Of a stretch of 64,000 nt of DNA, positions 52,756-60,974 are shown piece after piece (within the stretch, counting starts at the first letter, position 1; each line of letters starts with the position of its first letter). A program made the translations under genes and the position numbers. The notes beneath the pieces were generated by a model that worked only from the letters and a program-made list of their open reading frames with translations, did no database searches and was not told where the DNA came from. Where the stretch lies: assembly GCF_011769985.2 (NCBI RefSeq), contig NZ_CP039734.2, positions 1,612,001-1,676,000 of the forward strand, given 5' to 3'. Source of the DNA: Sulfurospirillum diekertiae (GTDB lineage: Bacteria > Campylobacterota > Campylobacteria > Campylobacterales > Sulfurospirillaceae).

Positions 52756-55119
52756 TTAGGACTCCACCACTTCCATTCTATGACTGTAAACATCTTTAAT
52801 CGTGATGTCACTGCCATTTTCTTCATACTTCACCCAATACGTCACATTTTGAACACGGAAACGTGCGAGAAAATCTGATGTTTCAGGGTTAAAAAACCGC
52901 TCTTTATGCGTAAGAGAATTATCGATCACTTTTTCAATATCACTTAGCAAGATAAATCGCTTTTCCATCATTGCGGTGATTTCATCTGAAATATGAAGCG
53001 TAAAATCATACGTTGTGTTCATGGCACTCTCCTCTTCATTCCATATCTCTTTAAGCAGTTGATGTTTGAGTCGTTTTCGATTGTTTTGTCGCGCTGAGAG
53101 TGTTGGCATTTTTTGAGGAGTATCTTCGTCTTTTTCAATGCCATAAATAAGATCTAAAATGTGATATGCTCTTTTATTTCCCTTGACAATGGCGTCTTTA
53201 CACATCGCGCAATACACCAAAATATCTTGTTCACTCTCGCTCACACGATCCGTCACAAAATCATCGGCTTGCTCAGGATTCGCATTTGATACCAATCCAC
53301 CATAACCACAACATTTGGCTTTCTCTTTAGAATATTCAAGCTCTTCAATGGTATAGCCTAACGTTTTCACGATGCTTCGTATACTATCATGGACTGCTGT
53401 ATTATGTCTACTAGCACACGCATCATGAATGCTCAAAACACGCCTACCTTTTTTAATATCCGTCGTAGGCAAACCATATTTATCTAACACTTCCCATAAA
53501 GAGATCGTCTTAATCATCGGTAAGTATTTTTCAAAGGTAGAAGCACAACTCGAACAGGCTAAGATAAACGTAGGCTCACCCATTTCTGTCCAAACCTTGT
53601 GTATTTTTTCCACACTTTCGGGCATAAGATCAAGCCTTCCTGCCCAATCAGCGGGTGCTCCACAACATCCCAAATAGAGACCAACATCGTTATCCGCATC
53701 TTTGGCTTTGATAATACCGACGACATGTTTATAAATCTCACCGATATAATCTGTATGCGTTGCGCTCAGTTGACATCCTGGATAAAAGAGATAACCCGTT
53801 TTTCCAGAGCCTTTGTACAAGCCTCTCGCATAGCCGGAAAAGGCAATGACAGGATAGTAAAAGAGATCTTTGGATTGTTCTTTACTGGGCTGTTTTCGAA
53901 CCATTGAGAATGAATCACTTTGACTAAATTGCATATCTTTAAGAGCAAAATCATGCGCCGAAAGTGGCATTTTCCCCCGTTCGACCATGCTCAGTCTCGT
54001 GGCATGGATAATATCTGCCATACCAATCCCTATAGGACATACCTCTTTGCATAAACCACACTCTGTACAGGAATTAATCATCGTATTGGCAGTTCTGTTT
54101 CCTAAAACAATCCGTTCGTTATGGTTGATACTTCGAATGTATCTATCGGGGGTAATGTTAAAACGTTGCATATGAGCACACGCCTTAATACAGGCATCAC
54201 ATTGGCATTTTAGACATCTGCTTGCTTCTTTTTTAGCTTCATCTTCAGAATAAAGAGAGGATATTTTAACCACCGTAGCGCTAGGTTTTACGGTATCAAT
54301 CTTATACTTTAATTTTGTTTCAAAAATTCCTTCACGCTCACGAGAGGCGGTCATAGAGGTTTTTGAAATATATCGATCTATTGAGATAGCTGCACGTTTA
54401 CCAGAACTTACAAAACCAATAACAGAACGGATATGAGTTTGAATTTCCCCGCCTATAAACAAGGACTGTTCGCCTACTTGAAACGTATCAGGATGGATCG
54501 CGTATGCTTTGTTCCAACACCCTGTTCCCAAGTAAACTGCATCGTACTTTTCAATATAACTTTGGAGATTTTCTTCTAATACTTCTGTATCATAGTAAAC
54601 AGTGATACCTTTTTGTTTTATCACTAAAAGTTCTTCTTCTATGATGGCGGTTTCTAAACCTTTACCTTCATAATCCCAAAGGCATCCACCTAATCGGTTG
54701 GATTTTTCATAAATGCTGACTTTGTACCCTTTTTTATCCAGCTCAATCGCGGCAATACACCCACTCAACCCTCCACCAATGATGGCAACATTTCCTTTTG
54801 TCTTGGGTAAGAGAAACGTTTTTTTAGGCTTTATATACCCTAAATCAATGACAGTTTTTTCAAGTTCACTGATGCGTATGCTTCCTCCAACGTCTTTTCT
54901 GACACACGTTGTTTCACAAGGATGGTCACATATTTTTCCAATCAATCGACTAAAAGGGATTTTAGCATCCATGATTGTGTAAGCTCCAGCAAAATTACCT
55001 TTTTCAATTTCAGACACAAATGCAATCACATCCATATGAACCGGACACGATGCAACGCATACGGGGGGTTCTGAATGAATACATTGATTGCTAATTTCCA
55101 ATAATTTATCTAAATCCAT
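52756..55119 (-). CDS. FAD-dependent oxidoreductase fused to Fe-S and CCG domains
   Basis: 787 residues. N-terminal cysteine cluster as in GltD-type proteins (CVASCPVHMDV, CDHPCETTCVR), FAD fold with AIIGGGLSGCIAAIELDKKGYKVSIYEK, a 4Fe-4S pair (CLKCQCDACIKACAH; CTECGLCKEVCPIG), then a heterodisulfide-reductase-like CCG region (FYPGCQLSATH, GLYLGCCGAPADWAG, FILACSSC; CCGYGG, VYCAMCKD) and a C-terminal 70-residue extra domain. This set suits an electron acceptor that links the aldehyde oxidoreductase to NAD(P)H, quinone or thiols. Start ATG at 55119 (GAGGATATAAG upstream). Recalled as the DVU_1558 type. Confidence 0.85.
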   Translation of the reverse strand: MDLDKLLEISNQCIHSEPPVCVASCPVHMDVIAFVSEIEKGNFAGAYTIMDAKIPFSRLIGKICDHPCETTCVRKDVGGSIRISELEKTVIDLGYIKPKKTFLLPKTKGNVAIIGGGLSGCIAAIELDKKGYKVSIYEKSNRLGGCLWDYEGKGLETAIIEEELLVIKQKGITVYYDTEVLEENLQSYIEKYDAVYLGTGCWNKAYAIHPDTFQVGEQSLFIGGEIQTHIRSVIGFVSSGKRAAISIDRYISKTSMTASREREGIFETKLKYKIDTVKPSATVVKISSLYSEDEAKKEASRCLKCQCDACIKACAHMQRFNITPDRYIRSINHNERIVLGNRTANTMINSCTECGLCKEVCPIGIGMADIIHATRLSMVERGKMPLSAHDFALKDMQFSQSDSFSMVRKQPSKEQSKDLFYYPVIAFSGYARGLYKGSGKTGYLFYPGCQLSATHTDYIGEIYKHVVGIIKAKDADNDVGLYLGCCGAPADWAGRLDLMPESVEKIHKVWTEMGEPTFILACSSCASTFEKYLPMIKTISLWEVLDKYGLPTTDIKKGRRVLSIHDACASRHNTAVHDSIRSIVKTLGYTIEELEYSKEKAKCCGYGGLVSNANPEQADDFVTDRVSESEQDILVYCAMCKDAIVKGNKRAYHILDLIYGIEKDEDTPQKMPTLSARQNNRKRLKHQLLKEIWNEEESAMNTTYDFTLHISDEITAMMEKRFILLSDIEKVIDNSLTHKERFFNPETSDFLARFRVQNVTYWVKYEENGSDITIKDVYSHRMEVVES

Positions 55120-55213
55120 TCTTATATCCTCATAGTATCGCGTTAAAGGCAAATGAATGTGTGAGATACAAAGAGTATCTCACACATCTTCTAATAAGCT
55201 TTTTCTAAAAAAA

Positions 55214-57937
55214 CTAATTAGCTAAAGCTTCCAACACTTTTTCTGGACGAGCTGGTAAGTGCGTAATTCTTGCACCACACGCATTGTAAATAGCATTAAT
55301 AATTGCCGCATGTGGAGCTGCAAGAGGCATTTCACCTGCACCTGCAGAACCTAGTAAGCCGTTTGGTCTTTGATATTCGGTATAGATGAGATCAAGATTA
55401 TCTGGGACATCTTTGATTTTTGGAATACCACATCCTGTTAAGGTTGTATGTTTTTTAAGATCATCGAAGTCTTCGGTAAGAGCTAAACCAATACCTTGAA
55501 CCAAACCACCATACATTTGTCCATCGACAACCAATTTATTGATGATCGTACCAACATCAGATGCCAATGTCATTTTCTCAACATTGGTTTTACCCGTTTT
55601 GGTATCGACCTCAACTTCTGCGATACAAACACCATACATATATGCGGCAAATGGATTTCCTTGACCATCTGTTGGAGGTGTATCTGTACATGGTGCTGTC
55701 CATTTACCCATATATTTAACCTCACGACCTTCCGCGATCATCTCTTCATAGGTTCTGTATGTACCATCTGCTTTTTTCAAGGCTTCAAGTAAGTTTCTAC
55801 ATGCAACAACCGTAGCATTACCCGTCATAACATTCGAACGACTTCCGCCAGCTGGTCCACTGTTTGGTGTTTTAGTCATATCGTTCAAGACTAAATCAAT
55901 TTGGGTTGGTTTAAGATTCAAAGGTTTTAATGTTTCATGCGCAAAAGTTAAGGTAGCAACATCGGCACCTTGACCATGATCTTCCCATGAATTACCTACA
56001 GTAACACCTTTTGCAGTAATCTCAGCCCATGCTTCAGAAGAGTCTGGACCATCTAAGCCACAACCATAGATGTTAGTAGAAACACCTACGCCGTATTTTT
56101 TACCAGGTGCTGCATTTGCATTCTTGGCAGCCGCTGTCTTTTTCGCTAATTCGTAAATAGGACGACTTTTATCAAACAGTTCTTCTAAACAATAGACATC
56201 AGGCTCACAACTGGTTGGCGTAGTATCCCCTGGTCTATAAATATTTTTATAGCGGAGTTCAAACGGATCCATACCAATTTTTTCAGCCAATTCATCAATG
56301 AGCACTTCGGATGGGAACATAATCTCAGGAGAGCCATACCCACGGAATGCTGAACCCCAACCATGGTTGGTACAAACAGTGCGTCCATTACCACGAATAT
56401 TAGGGATCATATATCCTGCACAACCAAATTGGAAACCACGTTGTGTTAACAAGTCACCAAATTCTGAGTAAGGACCATGATCAACGCTCCAATCAGATTC
56501 CAACGCTAAGAGTTTGCCTTCTTTGTTGGCAGCCAATTTCATGGTTGTCCAGAATGGAGAACGCTTACCAGTGTAGGTAATTTGTTGTTTCATATTGAAC
56601 TCAAGGTAAACAGGTCTTCCTGTTGCCATTGTTGCGACGCCTAATAATCCTTCCATCGTTGGACTAAATTTATAACCAAAAGTAGCCCCTGTATTGTTTT
56701 GGACGATATAGACATCTTCTGCTTTCATACCCACACCCTCAGCAATCATGAGTGCATGGAAGTGAAGTGCGATACTTTTTGAATGAATAATAAGTTTACC
56801 ATCATCATCCACATATGCAAAACCAACATCTGGCTCAAGCGGTAAGTGAGGTTGGCGTTGTGTATAGAAACTGTCTTCAACAACATAAGCAGCTTCTTTC
56901 ATAATAGGCGCAGTTTCAGCCCCTTTACTAATATGGTTCGTAAAGTAAACATTTGGAGTGCCTGGATGAATCTCAATAGCATCACTTGCCATAGCATCAG
57001 GAGCATTCATATACGCTGGCAATACTTCAAGTTCTACTTTAACTTTATCAACGCCTTCGTGAGCCGCTTTTTCATTTTCAGCGAGGACAATAGCGATTGC
57101 ATCACCGTATTGGAATATTTTTGTATCATTTAAAATTGGTCTATCTAAGCCATCACCTTTATTCGTAGGGAAAGCCAAACCATTAATTCTGTTCGTTCCT
57201 TTAACATCTTTATACGTTAAAACAGCAACAACACCAGGGACTTTTTTAGCTTCTTCGGTATCAATTGAGATAATATTTGCATGAGAAACTTCAGCTTGCA
57301 CAATTTTTGCATGAAGTGTATTCACTGGAAGTTTTAAGCCTAGATCTGCTCCAAAGTCCCATGTTCCAGTAACTTTTGCCATAGCTGAAGGACGAATATA
57401 CGTTGAGCCAACCAATGACGCACCTTCTGGTATTTTTTTCCAGAAATCTTTGATTGCCAATTCGCCTCTTATGATTTTTGCTGCATCCATAACCGCATCA
57501 ACGAGAGGTTTGTATCCTGTACAACGGCAGAGGTTTTTGTTTTTTTGGAACCAGTCTCTGACTTCTTCACGTGTTGGGTTGTTATTTTGCTCTAGGAGAA
57601 CTTTAGCAGAGACGATGAAACCTGGTGTACAATAACCACATTGTGCCGCACCATAGACCATCCAAGCAATTTGAAGAGGGTGAAGCTTGTCTTTCGTACC
57701 GACACCTTCAATGGTAATAATTTCATCATTATCTTCAATCTTTTTCATCTTCGTAATACATGATCTAACAAGCTTTCCATTAAGAATAACGGTACATGTA
57801 CCACATTCACCACTGTTACAGCCTACTTTTGTACCCGTAAGACCTAGTTGTTTTCTAAGCACATCGGATAATTTATCTTCTACATCCGCGACCAAGGTCG
57901 TTTTAACGCCGTTGATAATTAACATTTTCTTTAACAT
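55214..57937 (-). CDS. mop: Molybdenum aldehyde oxidoreductase (Desulfovibrio Mop type)
   Basis: Xanthine-oxidase-family enzyme that oxidises aldehydes to acids with a Mo-cytosine-dinucleotide cofactor and two 2Fe-2S clusters. Length 907 equals the Desulfovibrio gigas enzyme, and key residues fall at the same numbers: plant-type cluster C40, C45, C48, C60 (GCNSGECGTC), second cluster C100, C103, C137, C139 (CGYCTPG, CRCTGY), and catalytic E869 in GAGEMPLAAPHA. Other marks: RQPHLPLEPD, GATFGYKFSP, AFRGYGSPE. No signal peptide, so cytoplasmic. ATG at 57937 with GGGG six bases upstream. It heads a ten-gene operon with its maturation enzymes; two operator-like sites lie upstream. Confidence 0.95.
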   Translation of the reverse strand: MLKKMLIINGVKTTLVADVEDKLSDVLRKQLGLTGTKVGCNSGECGTCTVILNGKLVRSCITKMKKIEDNDEIITIEGVGTKDKLHPLQIAWMVYGAAQCGYCTPGFIVSAKVLLEQNNNPTREEVRDWFQKNKNLCRCTGYKPLVDAVMDAAKIIRGELAIKDFWKKIPEGASLVGSTYIRPSAMAKVTGTWDFGADLGLKLPVNTLHAKIVQAEVSHANIISIDTEEAKKVPGVVAVLTYKDVKGTNRINGLAFPTNKGDGLDRPILNDTKIFQYGDAIAIVLAENEKAAHEGVDKVKVELEVLPAYMNAPDAMASDAIEIHPGTPNVYFTNHISKGAETAPIMKEAAYVVEDSFYTQRQPHLPLEPDVGFAYVDDDGKLIIHSKSIALHFHALMIAEGVGMKAEDVYIVQNNTGATFGYKFSPTMEGLLGVATMATGRPVYLEFNMKQQITYTGKRSPFWTTMKLAANKEGKLLALESDWSVDHGPYSEFGDLLTQRGFQFGCAGYMIPNIRGNGRTVCTNHGWGSAFRGYGSPEIMFPSEVLIDELAEKIGMDPFELRYKNIYRPGDTTPTSCEPDVYCLEELFDKSRPIYELAKKTAAAKNANAAPGKKYGVGVSTNIYGCGLDGPDSSEAWAEITAKGVTVGNSWEDHGQGADVATLTFAHETLKPLNLKPTQIDLVLNDMTKTPNSGPAGGSRSNVMTGNATVVACRNLLEALKKADGTYRTYEEMIAEGREVKYMGKWTAPCTDTPPTDGQGNPFAAYMYGVCIAEVEVDTKTGKTNVEKMTLASDVGTIINKLVVDGQMYGGLVQGIGLALTEDFDDLKKHTTLTGCGIPKIKDVPDNLDLIYTEYQRPNGLLGSAGAGEMPLAAPHAAIINAIYNACGARITHLPARPEKVLEALAN

Positions 57938-57982
57938 GTTTTACCCCTTATAAATTAGTGTTACTTTATTTCTAAATGCAAC

Positions 57983-58003
57983 AATATGCGAAAAAAGCAT
58001 ATT
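57983..58003 (-). promoter_or_regulatory. Operator-like site 1 upstream of mop
   Basis: AATATG-N9-CATATT; arms extend by one pair to CAATATGC/GCATATTG with a purine spacer. Centre 56 bases before the mop start codon. Confidence 0.55.
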
Positions 58004-58045
58004 GATATCTATAAGCTTTTTGAAAATCTCATTTTAAAGGCCTAT

Positions 58046-58066
58046 AATATGTATATTTTGCATATT
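58046..58066 (-). promoter_or_regulatory. Operator-like site 2 upstream of mop
   Basis: AATATG-N9-CATATT again, same spacer length, arms extended to TAATATG/CATATTA. It lies exactly 63 bases from site 1, six turns of B-DNA, so two dimers could bind on one face. Confidence 0.55.
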
Positions 58067-58303
58067 ATCCACGATGAACCATCAAAAAACTCACCAATTT
58101 AAATTCACTATGAAGCACGTACATACACTGTATTAGTCATGTTTTATAGAATATTTTTTTGGCCTCCCATAACCTACGTATTTTTTGTTGTCTTTACTTA
58201 CACTGAAGATTATATACTAGTAATCTAGCATGAATATAGCAACAGGTTTGATTGCAAATATGCCTAATTACAAAGAGAAATTTATGAGTAAATAAGTAAT
58301 ATT

Positions 58304-58315
58304 CTTACATGTAAA
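58304..58315. repeat. Iterated palindrome, near-exact intergenic copy
   Basis: CTTACATGTAAA, 96 bases upstream of the FIST kinase start; first copy after the 6.1-kb gap across the mop genes. Confidence 0.65.
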
Positions 58316-58410
58316 GCCTTGTTTTTGCAACTTCATATCTTAAAGCAACTTTTTAAAAGCTACTATTGGGTATCTTTATTTAAGGTCAAAATGGGGAAGG
58401 AAGACGTTTT

Positions 58411-60309
58411 ATGAAAACCTATAATTTTTGTTATGAAATAGGCTCTCTGCCAAGTATTATAGATTTTTCACTCTTTGTCAATGAAAAGAATGTTTTAGTG
58501 CAACTATTTTGTGGTCACGGTAAAGAAGTATTAAAGTATACCAGTGATGTTATCCTCAGCCATCTTCCAAACGCCATTTGTATAGGAACGACCACGGATG
58601 GAGAAATATACGGCGAGTCTATCACAACATTCCGAACCATTATCTCTATTAGTATTTTTGAGCATACCTTTATCAAGACAGCCTATGCACAAGATGATGA
58701 TTCATTTCAATGCGGTATGAAATTAGCATCGGATTTGATAACACCCAATACAAAATTACTGATTCTTTTTTCTGATGGTACCCATATGAATGCCGAAGAG
58801 TTTTTAAAAGGTGTAGAGACCTTCGATTCAACGGTTCCTGTTTGTGGAGGTATGGCAGGAGATAATGGGAAATTTGAACAAACCTATATTTCATCTCAAC
58901 ATACGCTCATCAGTGAAGGCGTAGTGGGAGTCTCTCTAAATTCCGATATTCTTCAAGTCGCAACAAACTATAAATTTGATTGGAAACCCATAGGACTAAC
59001 ACATACGCTTACCAAGGTTCAAAATAACAGAGTTTACATGATCGATGATATGAAAGCGACTGATTTTTATGACAAATACCTCGGTGGTAATTTTTCACAA
59101 ACAGAATTTCCCCTTATTCTTGAAAAAAATAGCGTTACGATGGTAAGAGCTGTCATAGCGAAGCATGAAGATGGAAGCCTGAGTTACAGTGGAAATCTCA
59201 ATGAAGGAGATCAAGTCAGGATTGGTTTTGGCGATGCTGAATCTTTAATGAAAGACCCTATAGAATCCTTAGAAAATTTACAATCGATCAACACAGAAAC
59301 CTTTTTTATCTTCTCCTGTATGGCACGACGAAGATTTATGCCATTTCTCATCAAATTAGGGATTGGGTCGTTTGCACGAACGGCAACAACTTCAGGATTT
59401 TACACCTACTCAGAATTTTATCATCATGATGGTCACAATAAACTTCTTAACCAAACACTGACCGTTGTTGCTTTAAGTGAATCAGAAAAAAGCCCTCTTT
59501 CTGCCCCACATACAAACACAGATATGAATAAGAAAGATACTTCTTATTTTAGAACGTTTAAAACGATTGAATCATTGACCCATTTAATTGAACAAAGTGC
59601 GCGTGATTACGAAGAGCAGTCCAAACGCTTAGAGGAGCAGATGAATTATTCTGAAAATCTTTTGGCGTCTCATAGACAATTTCTGCGTTATACCGTCCAC
59701 GAGATGAACTCTCCACTTAGTGTGATCATGGGCAATATTGAACTGCATGAGATGGAATTTGGGAAAAGTGTTTATTTGGAAAATATCGAAGTTGCCGCTA
59801 AAAGTATTTTTTCAATGTATGATGATTTGAGTTATTTGGTTAAAAAAGACCATATTCACTATATGAAACAAAGGATTGATTTAGTCGATTATGTCCGCAG
59901 TCGCATTGATTTTTTTGCGCAAGTTGCCGACAAAGCAAAATCAATGTTTCTCTTTGAATCCAATTTAAGTGAGATATATATCTTTTTTAATGAGACAAAA
60001 TTACAGCGTATCATCGATAACAACCTCACCAATGCTATTAAGTATACCTTTGAAAATGAACAGATTATTGTTTCATTGCATCAAGAGCATGATAATTGTC
60101 ATTTTTTCATTGCATCGCACTCGCGCAAAATTCAAGAACCCGAGAAAATTTTTGAAGAATACTACCGGGAAGAACAATCCCAAGAAGGCTTTGGATTGGG
60201 GCTCAATCTCGTTAGAAGAATCTGTAAGGAAGAAAATGTGAAAATAACACTGCATTCAAGCGAAAATATAACATCCTTTTCATACCAATTTAAAGTGCTA
60301 AACACATGA
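58411..60309 (+). CDS. FIST-domain sensor histidine kinase
   Basis: 632 residues, no membrane segment, so a cytoplasmic sensor. FIST_N (about 20-210: IGTTTDGEIYGE, PVCGGMAGDNGKF, EGVVGVSLNSDI) and FIST_C (about 215-365: FSCMARRRFM) form a domain thought to bind small molecules such as amino acids. A coiled coil (about 390-430) leads to the DHp helix with H in YTVHEMNSPLSVIMGN and an ATPase domain (NNLTNAIKYTFENE, GFGLGLNLVRRI). The usual DxGxG box is replaced by ASHSRKI, so nucleotide binding may be altered. It is coupled to the response regulator after it and lies divergent from mop, which it may control. Confidence 0.83.
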   Translation: MKTYNFCYEIGSLPSIIDFSLFVNEKNVLVQLFCGHGKEVLKYTSDVILSHLPNAICIGTTTDGEIYGESITTFRTIISISIFEHTFIKTAYAQDDDSFQCGMKLASDLITPNTKLLILFSDGTHMNAEEFLKGVETFDSTVPVCGGMAGDNGKFEQTYISSQHTLISEGVVGVSLNSDILQVATNYKFDWKPIGLTHTLTKVQNNRVYMIDDMKATDFYDKYLGGNFSQTEFPLILEKNSVTMVRAVIAKHEDGSLSYSGNLNEGDQVRIGFGDAESLMKDPIESLENLQSINTETFFIFSCMARRRFMPFLIKLGIGSFARTATTSGFYTYSEFYHHDGHNKLLNQTLTVVALSESEKSPLSAPHTNTDMNKKDTSYFRTFKTIESLTHLIEQSARDYEEQSKRLEEQMNYSENLLASHRQFLRYTVHEMNSPLSVIMGNIELHEMEFGKSVYLENIEVAAKSIFSMYDDLSYLVKKDHIHYMKQRIDLVDYVRSRIDFFAQVADKAKSMFLFESNLSEIYIFFNETKLQRIIDNNLTNAIKYTFENEQIIVSLHQEHDNCHFFIASHSRKIQEPEKIFEEYYREEQSQEGFGLGLNLVRRICKEENVKITLHSSENITSFSYQFKVLNT

Positions 60310-60974
60310 AAATTTTACTCTTAGAAGATGATATTCTCTTAAATGAATCTATCACAAAGTACCTTACAGCCATTGGTCATGTCATCACTTCCGTAAGAGA
60401 TGGCAATATCTGTCTTCAAATTTTAGAAAATGAAAAATTTGACTTGCTTGTTTTTGATATCAACGTACCCAATGTTGATGGATTAACAATCTTAGAAACA
60501 CTGCATGCACAAAAAAAAATAATGCCTGTTATTTTTATCTCAACGCTCATTGACATCGAAGATATATCACGAGCATTTGAACTTGGGTGTTACGATTATT
60601 TGAAAAAACCCTTTCATTTAAAAGAACTCAATCTAAGAATTGACAGAATTTCCAAAACCGCTAAAAAAGATATGCATCACAAAAGGCTCTCTCCTTCTTA
60701 CAGTTTTGATTGTGACACGATGACACTTTATTTTCACGAAGAACCACAGGTTTTATCCAAACGACAACTTCAAATCATCGAATTTCTCACCCGCAATCGA
60801 GGATTTGTCTGTGGCTTTGATATGTTTAGAGAAAACGTATGGAATGATTTTGATATGGATGTCGATGATGCCACTATACGAACAGAAATCAACCGTTTAA
60901 AAAATAATTTGAAAGAAGATTTTATCGTCAATATTAGAGGCATCGGCTACATGATCAAAGTTCCTTCGGCGTAA
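60306..60974 (+). CDS. OmpR-family response regulator
   Basis: 222 residues: REC domain with acidic pair LLEDDIL, phospho-Asp in VFDINVPNVDGL, KKPFHLKEL lysine, and a C-terminal winged helix (LSKRQLQIIEFLTRN, VDDATIRTEINRLKNNL, IRGIGYMI). It overlaps the FIST kinase gene by four bases (ATGA), so they form a pair. Targets unknown; the mop promoter next door is the first one to test, though OmpR-type proteins prefer direct repeats. Confidence 0.9.
   Translation: MKILLLEDDILLNESITKYLTAIGHVITSVRDGNICLQILENEKFDLLVFDINVPNVDGLTILETLHAQKKIMPVIFISTLIDIEDISRAFELGCYDYLKKPFHLKELNLRIDRISKTAKKDMHHKRLSPSYSFDCDTMTLYFHEEPQVLSKRQLQIIEFLTRNRGFVCGFDMFRENVWNDFDMDVDDATIRTEINRLKNNLKEDFIVNIRGIGYMIKVPSA

Follow-up and report, generated by a model that had tools for sequence, protein, structure and literature searches.

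A Predicted Double Operator Upstream of mop in Sulfurospirillum diekertiae and Its Probable Reader, an fdhD-Linked ModE-like Protein without a TOBE Domain

The mop Locus and Its Paired Repeats

The analysed stretch of Sulfurospirillum diekertiae DNA (64,000 nucleotides, referred to below as the window) carries on the reverse strand the gene mop (55214–57937), which encodes a molybdopterin-dependent aldehyde oxidoreductase (NF045668 equivalog, 1609 bits vs. a cut-off of 1100). It is followed on the same strand, in what is presumed to be the mop operon, by a gene (52756–55152) for a pyridine nucleotide-disulfide oxidoreductase/dicluster-binding protein (NF045663). Divergent from mop, on the forward strand, are the genes of a FIST-domain sensor histidine kinase (58411–60309) and of an OmpR-type response regulator (60306–60974), the latter being a rival candidate for the binding protein. 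Both predicted operators described here are located in the upstream region of the kinase gene.

The initial annotation reported twin AATATG-N9-CATATT repeats 63 bp apart, and both are present in the sequence, neither having an assigned strand. The proximal predicted operator (57983–58003, AATATGcgaaaaaaGCATATT; core 57984–58002, ATATGCGAAAAAAGCATAT) matches 12 of 12 arm bases and ends 45 bp from the mop start codon, while the distal one (58046–58066, AATATGtatattttGCATATT; core 58047–58065, ATATGTATATTTTGCATAT) matches 11 of 12. Their centres are at 57993 and 58056, i.e., at a distance of 63 bp. The six-base arms given for the motif are exact, but that description turned out to be incomplete: the proximal site has arms of seven bases (AATATGC-N7-GCATATT), and the unit common to the sites across genomes is ATATGC-N7-GCATAT, its spacer containing an A/T tract. 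The segment between the two operators (58004–58045) may contain the mop promoter, since an alignment of 20 mop upstream regions reveals a conserved TTTTCA-AAAGCTTAT on the mop (reverse) strand.

A search of the whole window for AATATG-N9-CATATT with fewer than two mismatches returns the twin sites only, in agreement with the earlier statement that there is no other copy. Nine further places have two mismatches, and the resulting total of 11 vs. 7.6 expected is about what chance would give. Random windows with matched dinucleotide composition (150, first-order Markov) contain 0.013 exact matches on average, and none of them has a pair within 200 bp. In the whole genome, there are 6 exact places vs. 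1 for the reversed control. A scan of 57700–58500 against Rfam gives no family above the gathering score.

Conservation and Spacing of the Sites

The mop gene was found in 21 of the 24 genomes of the genus. When the pattern is searched for upstream of mop in these relatives, as the initial annotation had suggested, both sites are seen to be kept, with at least 10 of 12 arm bases, in 19 of the 21 mop-bearing genomes. This conservation supports the predicted operator role. The two other regions are those of G012, where the proximal site matches 11/12 and the distal one is degenerate, and G020, which has no mop site, a mop gene in pieces, and a kinase gene with internal stops. The spacing is 62–63 bp in 16 of the 19 regions; two others have 59 and 60 bp, and in G021 it is 41 bp (two turns less), with about 22 bp missing between the sites. 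On the mop strand, the A tract is usually in the distal site and the T tract in the proximal one, so the pair is roughly mirror-symmetric. In two family genomes of other genera, mop is likewise accompanied by two exact sites; their spacing is 56 bp in G098 and 170 bp in G250.

The 30 distinct site pairs include 14 spaced at 62–63 bp and seven at 41–42 bp, together 21 of the 30. Similar spacing is observed at different genes, namely mop, fdh, and the second mod operon, which carries a pair 64 bp apart in G006 and G011. The recurrence of the 62–63 and 41–42 bp distances at different genes supports cooperation between the sites. When 14 promoters, grouped by judgement so as to be roughly independent, are tested formally for phase, p is about 0.15, and about 0.07 for the 12 promoters with spacing of at most 70 bp. 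Of the same-face arrangement of six helical turns proposed earlier, the whole-turn spacing mostly holds, whereas strict helical phasing is not significant on the grouped promoters. Helical phasing is likely but not proven.

Genes Preceded by the Operator

Across the 24 genomes of the genus, there are 80 exact copies of ATATGC-N7-GCATAT and five of the reversed pattern. The flanks of 55 exact sites, chosen by hand rather than at random, were assigned by reading to genes of formate dehydrogenase (26), tungsten aldehyde oxidoreductase (AOR; 11), and mop (4), which makes 41; two are ambiguous, and 12 are elsewhere. Most mop sites, a few other listed sites, and sites beyond those listed were left out of this reading, as were three with chance-like spacers (G003:C1:253975, G011:C1:761730, and G021:C7:145249). 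The formate dehydrogenase loci with sites include genes for a TorD-like chaperone, FdhA, and a TonB receptor. The 12 sites placed elsewhere have no evident link to molybdenum or tungsten; MarR and FIST-GGDEF-EAL genes are among their neighbors. In the genome to which the window belongs (G000), AOR (1989166) and each of the two fdh clusters (2417993 and 2444982) have a one-mismatch site in front, and neither tupA nor modE1 of this genome has a site of at least 11/12. Taken together, the operator-bearing genes are those of molybdenum/tungsten enzymes and of the uptake of these metals.

Several single loci deserve a separate description. The palindrome AATATGCAAAATTTGCATATT (L001 1501–1521; G000:C1:261193) lies about 90 bp before a FIST-PAS-GGDEF-EAL gene and might connect the regulon to cyclic di-GMP. 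The MarR protein (G000:C1:2404116) was considered as the regulator and set aside; its site, ATATGCAATAATTGCATAT, may be a coincidental MarR-type palindrome. At five loci (L173, L184, L215, L216, and L219), a TonB-dependent receptor and a formate dehydrogenase operon share the operator region, and tungsten or molybdenum might cross the outer membrane as a metal-chelate through this receptor. The distance from the site to the TorD-like gene is nearly constant at 232–235 bp (L177, L184, L187, L206, L216, and L219), which suggests a long conserved leader. On an uncultured Sulfurovum contig (L111 4332), an exact site follows a moeA-looking gene at about 10 bp. This contig came from a collection-wide scan with a 14-base motif, in which the matches listed were mostly from unrelated bacteria and which was used for L036, L087, and L111 only.

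The ModE-like Protein and the Operators around Its Gene

Genome G000 has three ModE-type genes. ModE1 and ModE2 contain TOBE, and the third protein does not. The gene of the latter, modE-like (G000:C1:2410589-2411329, 246 aa), is located directly behind fdhD and near tupABC. In the protein, the N-terminal domain contains two C-x-LG-x-F repeats, the C-terminal one is a ModE-type winged helix, and TOBE/Mop is absent. For the repeat domain, no Pfam or NCBIfam family scores above cut-off. The helix domain reaches 64.7 bits against ModE_repress TIGR00637, below the cut-off of 98.5, and Pfam gives a weak HTH_1 match only. The best PDB sequence matches of the protein are the ModE structures 2ijl, 1o7l, and 1b9m. 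A single-sequence structure model has a mean pLDDT of 50.8 and is too poor to use.

In 13 of the 15 loci of family f9, the sensor half and the helix half are encoded by two genes that overlap or adjoin, with no change in the operator. The split form (seen among L087 1041–1830 and L462–L476) consists of a sensor ORF of 134–151 aa with two C-x-LG-x-F repeats followed by a helix ORF of 120–133 aa; the family includes Arcobacter sp. EP1, as L087 matches L463 over the helix gene. In G111, the modE-like gene keeps its first 134 residues and stops before the helix domain, and this is the only one of the 11 family genomes outside the genus without any site. Two genomes of the genus have no modE-like gene: G013 (99% complete), with near-perfect twin mop sites, and G019 (77% complete), with an 11/12 site before AOR.

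Outside the family, 51 of 52 genomes were covered (the copy of G066 was left out), and the 525,670 bp around their modE-like genes contain 28 exact sites. In the same sequence, a permuted-arm control gives a mean of 0.08 over 179 permuted arms, with a maximum of 2. Most of the 28 exact sites are placed before fdhD, wtpA, or tupA. Sites at wtpA and fdhD, those of the g2 genomes described below included, are mostly 10–140 bp before the start codon. In 28 of 56 testable loci, the region from −250 to +40 relative to the gene that precedes modE-like contains a site of at least 11/12, and a permuted arm scores as high in none of these 28; the upstream gene was taken automatically and is not confirmed as fdhD in every row. 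Four of the 60 loci (L447, L449, L450, and L468) were dropped because the neighbor could not be picked automatically. In eight g28, six f16, and two g45 genomes (0 of 16), no site of at least 11/12 precedes the modE-like operon. In four g2 genomes that have no response-regulator orthologue, sites are found directly before fdhD–modE-like, before wtpA (an equivalog call above cut-off) just after it, or before AOR or fdh.

Which Protein Reads the Sites

We consider it quite probable, on sequence evidence, that the two sites form a double operator within a molybdenum/tungsten regulon, most likely read by the fdhD-linked ModE-like protein without TOBE. This reader is favored by the conservation of the operator, by the genes that it precedes, and by its concentration around the modE-like gene in several families. 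Counting against it are the lack of the gene in G013 and G019, the lack of a site at the modE-like operon in the 16 g28, f16, and g45 genomes, and the 12 of 55 sites with no evident Mo/W link together with the helix score below cut-off. A strict requirement for modE-like wherever sites occur is contradicted by G013; a recent loss of the gene would explain this genome, yet its sites are nearly perfect. Since the kinase/regulator pair stands beside mop or AOR in most genomes of the genus, a local regulator fits there as well.

It is unlikely, all the same, that the adjacent FIST histidine kinase and OmpR-type response regulator, the main rival, account for the sites, the response regulator binding them and aldehyde oxidation being controlled via a FIST ligand such as an aldehyde. 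The gene order speaks for such control: orthologues of the pair occur in all 24 genomes of the genus, the pair is divergent from mop with the sites in between, the order is kinase–regulator–site–AOR in G019 and site–regulator–AOR in G002, and in G018 and G022 the kinase at the AOR locus has a site in front of it. The best family matches of the response regulator are of the CusR/CopR types, whose boxes are palindromes, and G013 keeps the response regulator and the sites without modE-like. Outside the genus, however, an orthologue of at least 64% is found in only three of the 11 family genomes; six have only a 49–53% paralogue, and G111 and G224 have none at E 1e-45. Exact sites are nevertheless present in seven of these eight genomes (all but G111), in g2 at wtpA, fdhD, AOR, and fdh, and they also surround modE-like in other families, the search for the response regulator having covered the genus and the family only. 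Genomes without the response regulator thus keep the operators, which makes it a less likely reader and disfavors it as the sole one. The two proteins are not mutually exclusive, as the distal operator is bordered by conserved TGAG(A/T)TTTT stretches (about 58025–58130, mop strand) that could serve the response regulator; they are possible direct-repeat sites of this protein itself. The kinase/regulator pair (window 58411–60974; L345, L176, L205, and L211) tracks the unrelated mop and AOR families across the genus, and its association with two unrelated families of aldehyde oxidoreductase suggests an aldehyde-related signal.

Binding of a classical TOBE-containing ModE (ModE1 or ModE2) to a divergent box at mop appears very improbable. 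Every genome of the genus has a ModE-type gene of some kind, ModE1 is kept in G013 and G019, and the targets of the sites are Mo/W genes. Nonetheless, the modE1 promoter bears a classical-type box, CGTTATATACAATAAATACATAA, close to the consensus ATCGCTATATA-N6-TATATAACGAT as given in the available part of PMC2700814, and no such box is found upstream of mop. The recognition helices also differ, being SYKAAWEAVDTMNN in ModE1 and NYKKAWTHIKILQKN in the ModE-like protein. The mop sites were therefore rejected as classical ModE boxes, since their sequence differs from the box at modE1. We give an equally small chance to a factor encoded elsewhere, with the link to modE-like due to shared Mo/W targets only. 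The G013 exception and the sites at MarR, FIST-GGDEF-EAL, and other genes would suit such a factor, but half of the testable loci, and most of the families with the fdhD–modE-like operon, have sites directly before this operon, the split form included. Least credible of all are chance repeats or an RNA element that binds no protein. Although the region is AT-rich, the window counts, the rarity in Markov windows, the conservation at mop, and the negative Rfam scan led us to reject both. Of the candidates named in the initial annotation, the ModE-like proteins are accordingly favored over the adjacent response regulator, but in the form of the fdhD-linked kind without TOBE and not of the classical one.

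If the ModE-like protein is the reader, it would bind each 19-bp site as a dimer, the half-site centers being 11 bp, or one turn, apart. With six (or four) turns between them, two dimers would share one face of the DNA and could cooperate or form a loop over the mop promoter. With the promoter in the inter-operator segment, the proximal site would lie at or just past the transcription start, an arrangement which would favor repression by looping. The position of sites 10–140 bp before the wtpA and fdhD start codons also suits repression. Metal supply would alter the binding of the protein, and the uptake genes would be repressed by it. More tentatively, with a chance that we put slightly below even, ATATGC-N7-GCATAT may be the code of a separate, Campylobacterota-wide class of Mo/W regulators in which the two-repeat C-x-LG-x-F domain, joined to the helix domain or, in the Arcobacter family, made as a separate subunit, replaces the TOBE oxyanion pocket, possibly sensing FdhD/Moco maturation instead of the free oxyanion, and which acts through phased double operators at mop and fdh.

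Relation to Known Regulators and Significance

According to the part of PMC7011364 available to us, Cj1507c of C. jejuni is encoded next to or behind fdhD, has no metal-binding domain, acts as a repressor of the transport operons for molybdenum and tungsten, and, within a complex, may be the subunit that binds DNA; the work is traced there to Taveirne et al., 2009. The ModE-like protein resembles the Cj1507c type, as far as the latter is described there, in its position behind fdhD, its ModE-type helix, and the lack of a metal-binding domain. Cj1507c is stated in the same text to control Mo/W uptake operons, and here sites precede wtpA/tupA in several genomes as well as the second mod operon. 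In contrast to the Cj1507c type, the regulon proposed here also comprises mop, AOR, and FDH genes; the g28 copies are among the most diverged and have no operator copy before the modE-like operon. The available part of PMC7011364 describes no operator sequence for Cj1507c.

With the classical ModE regulon of E. coli and Geobacter, the present system shares Mo/W genes, a palindromic operator, and a related helix-turn-helix. It differs in the operator, which departs from the classical consensus, and in the candidate protein, which has no TOBE/Mop domains. In Geobacter metallireducens, vestigial ModE sites were left after the loss of ModE, as reported in the available part of PMC2700814. The operator ATATGC-N7-GCATAT was not found in print in a literature search that was small and confined to open-access papers. 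TunR of sulfate reducers provides tungstate-responsive control of tup genes, and its protein architecture is different. The ModE-like class is known but poorly studied, and it probably reads a conserved Mo/W double operator.

Campylobacterota contain both tungsten and molybdenum enzymes, as well as a ModE-like protein reported to have no metal-binding domain. The C-x-LG-x-F domain is an unrecognized candidate sensor domain, and the natural split into sensor and DNA-binding proteins would ease the study of the sensing step. In general, the operator, the regulon, and the candidate regulator described here make tungsten and molybdenum control in Campylobacterota accessible to experimental testing.
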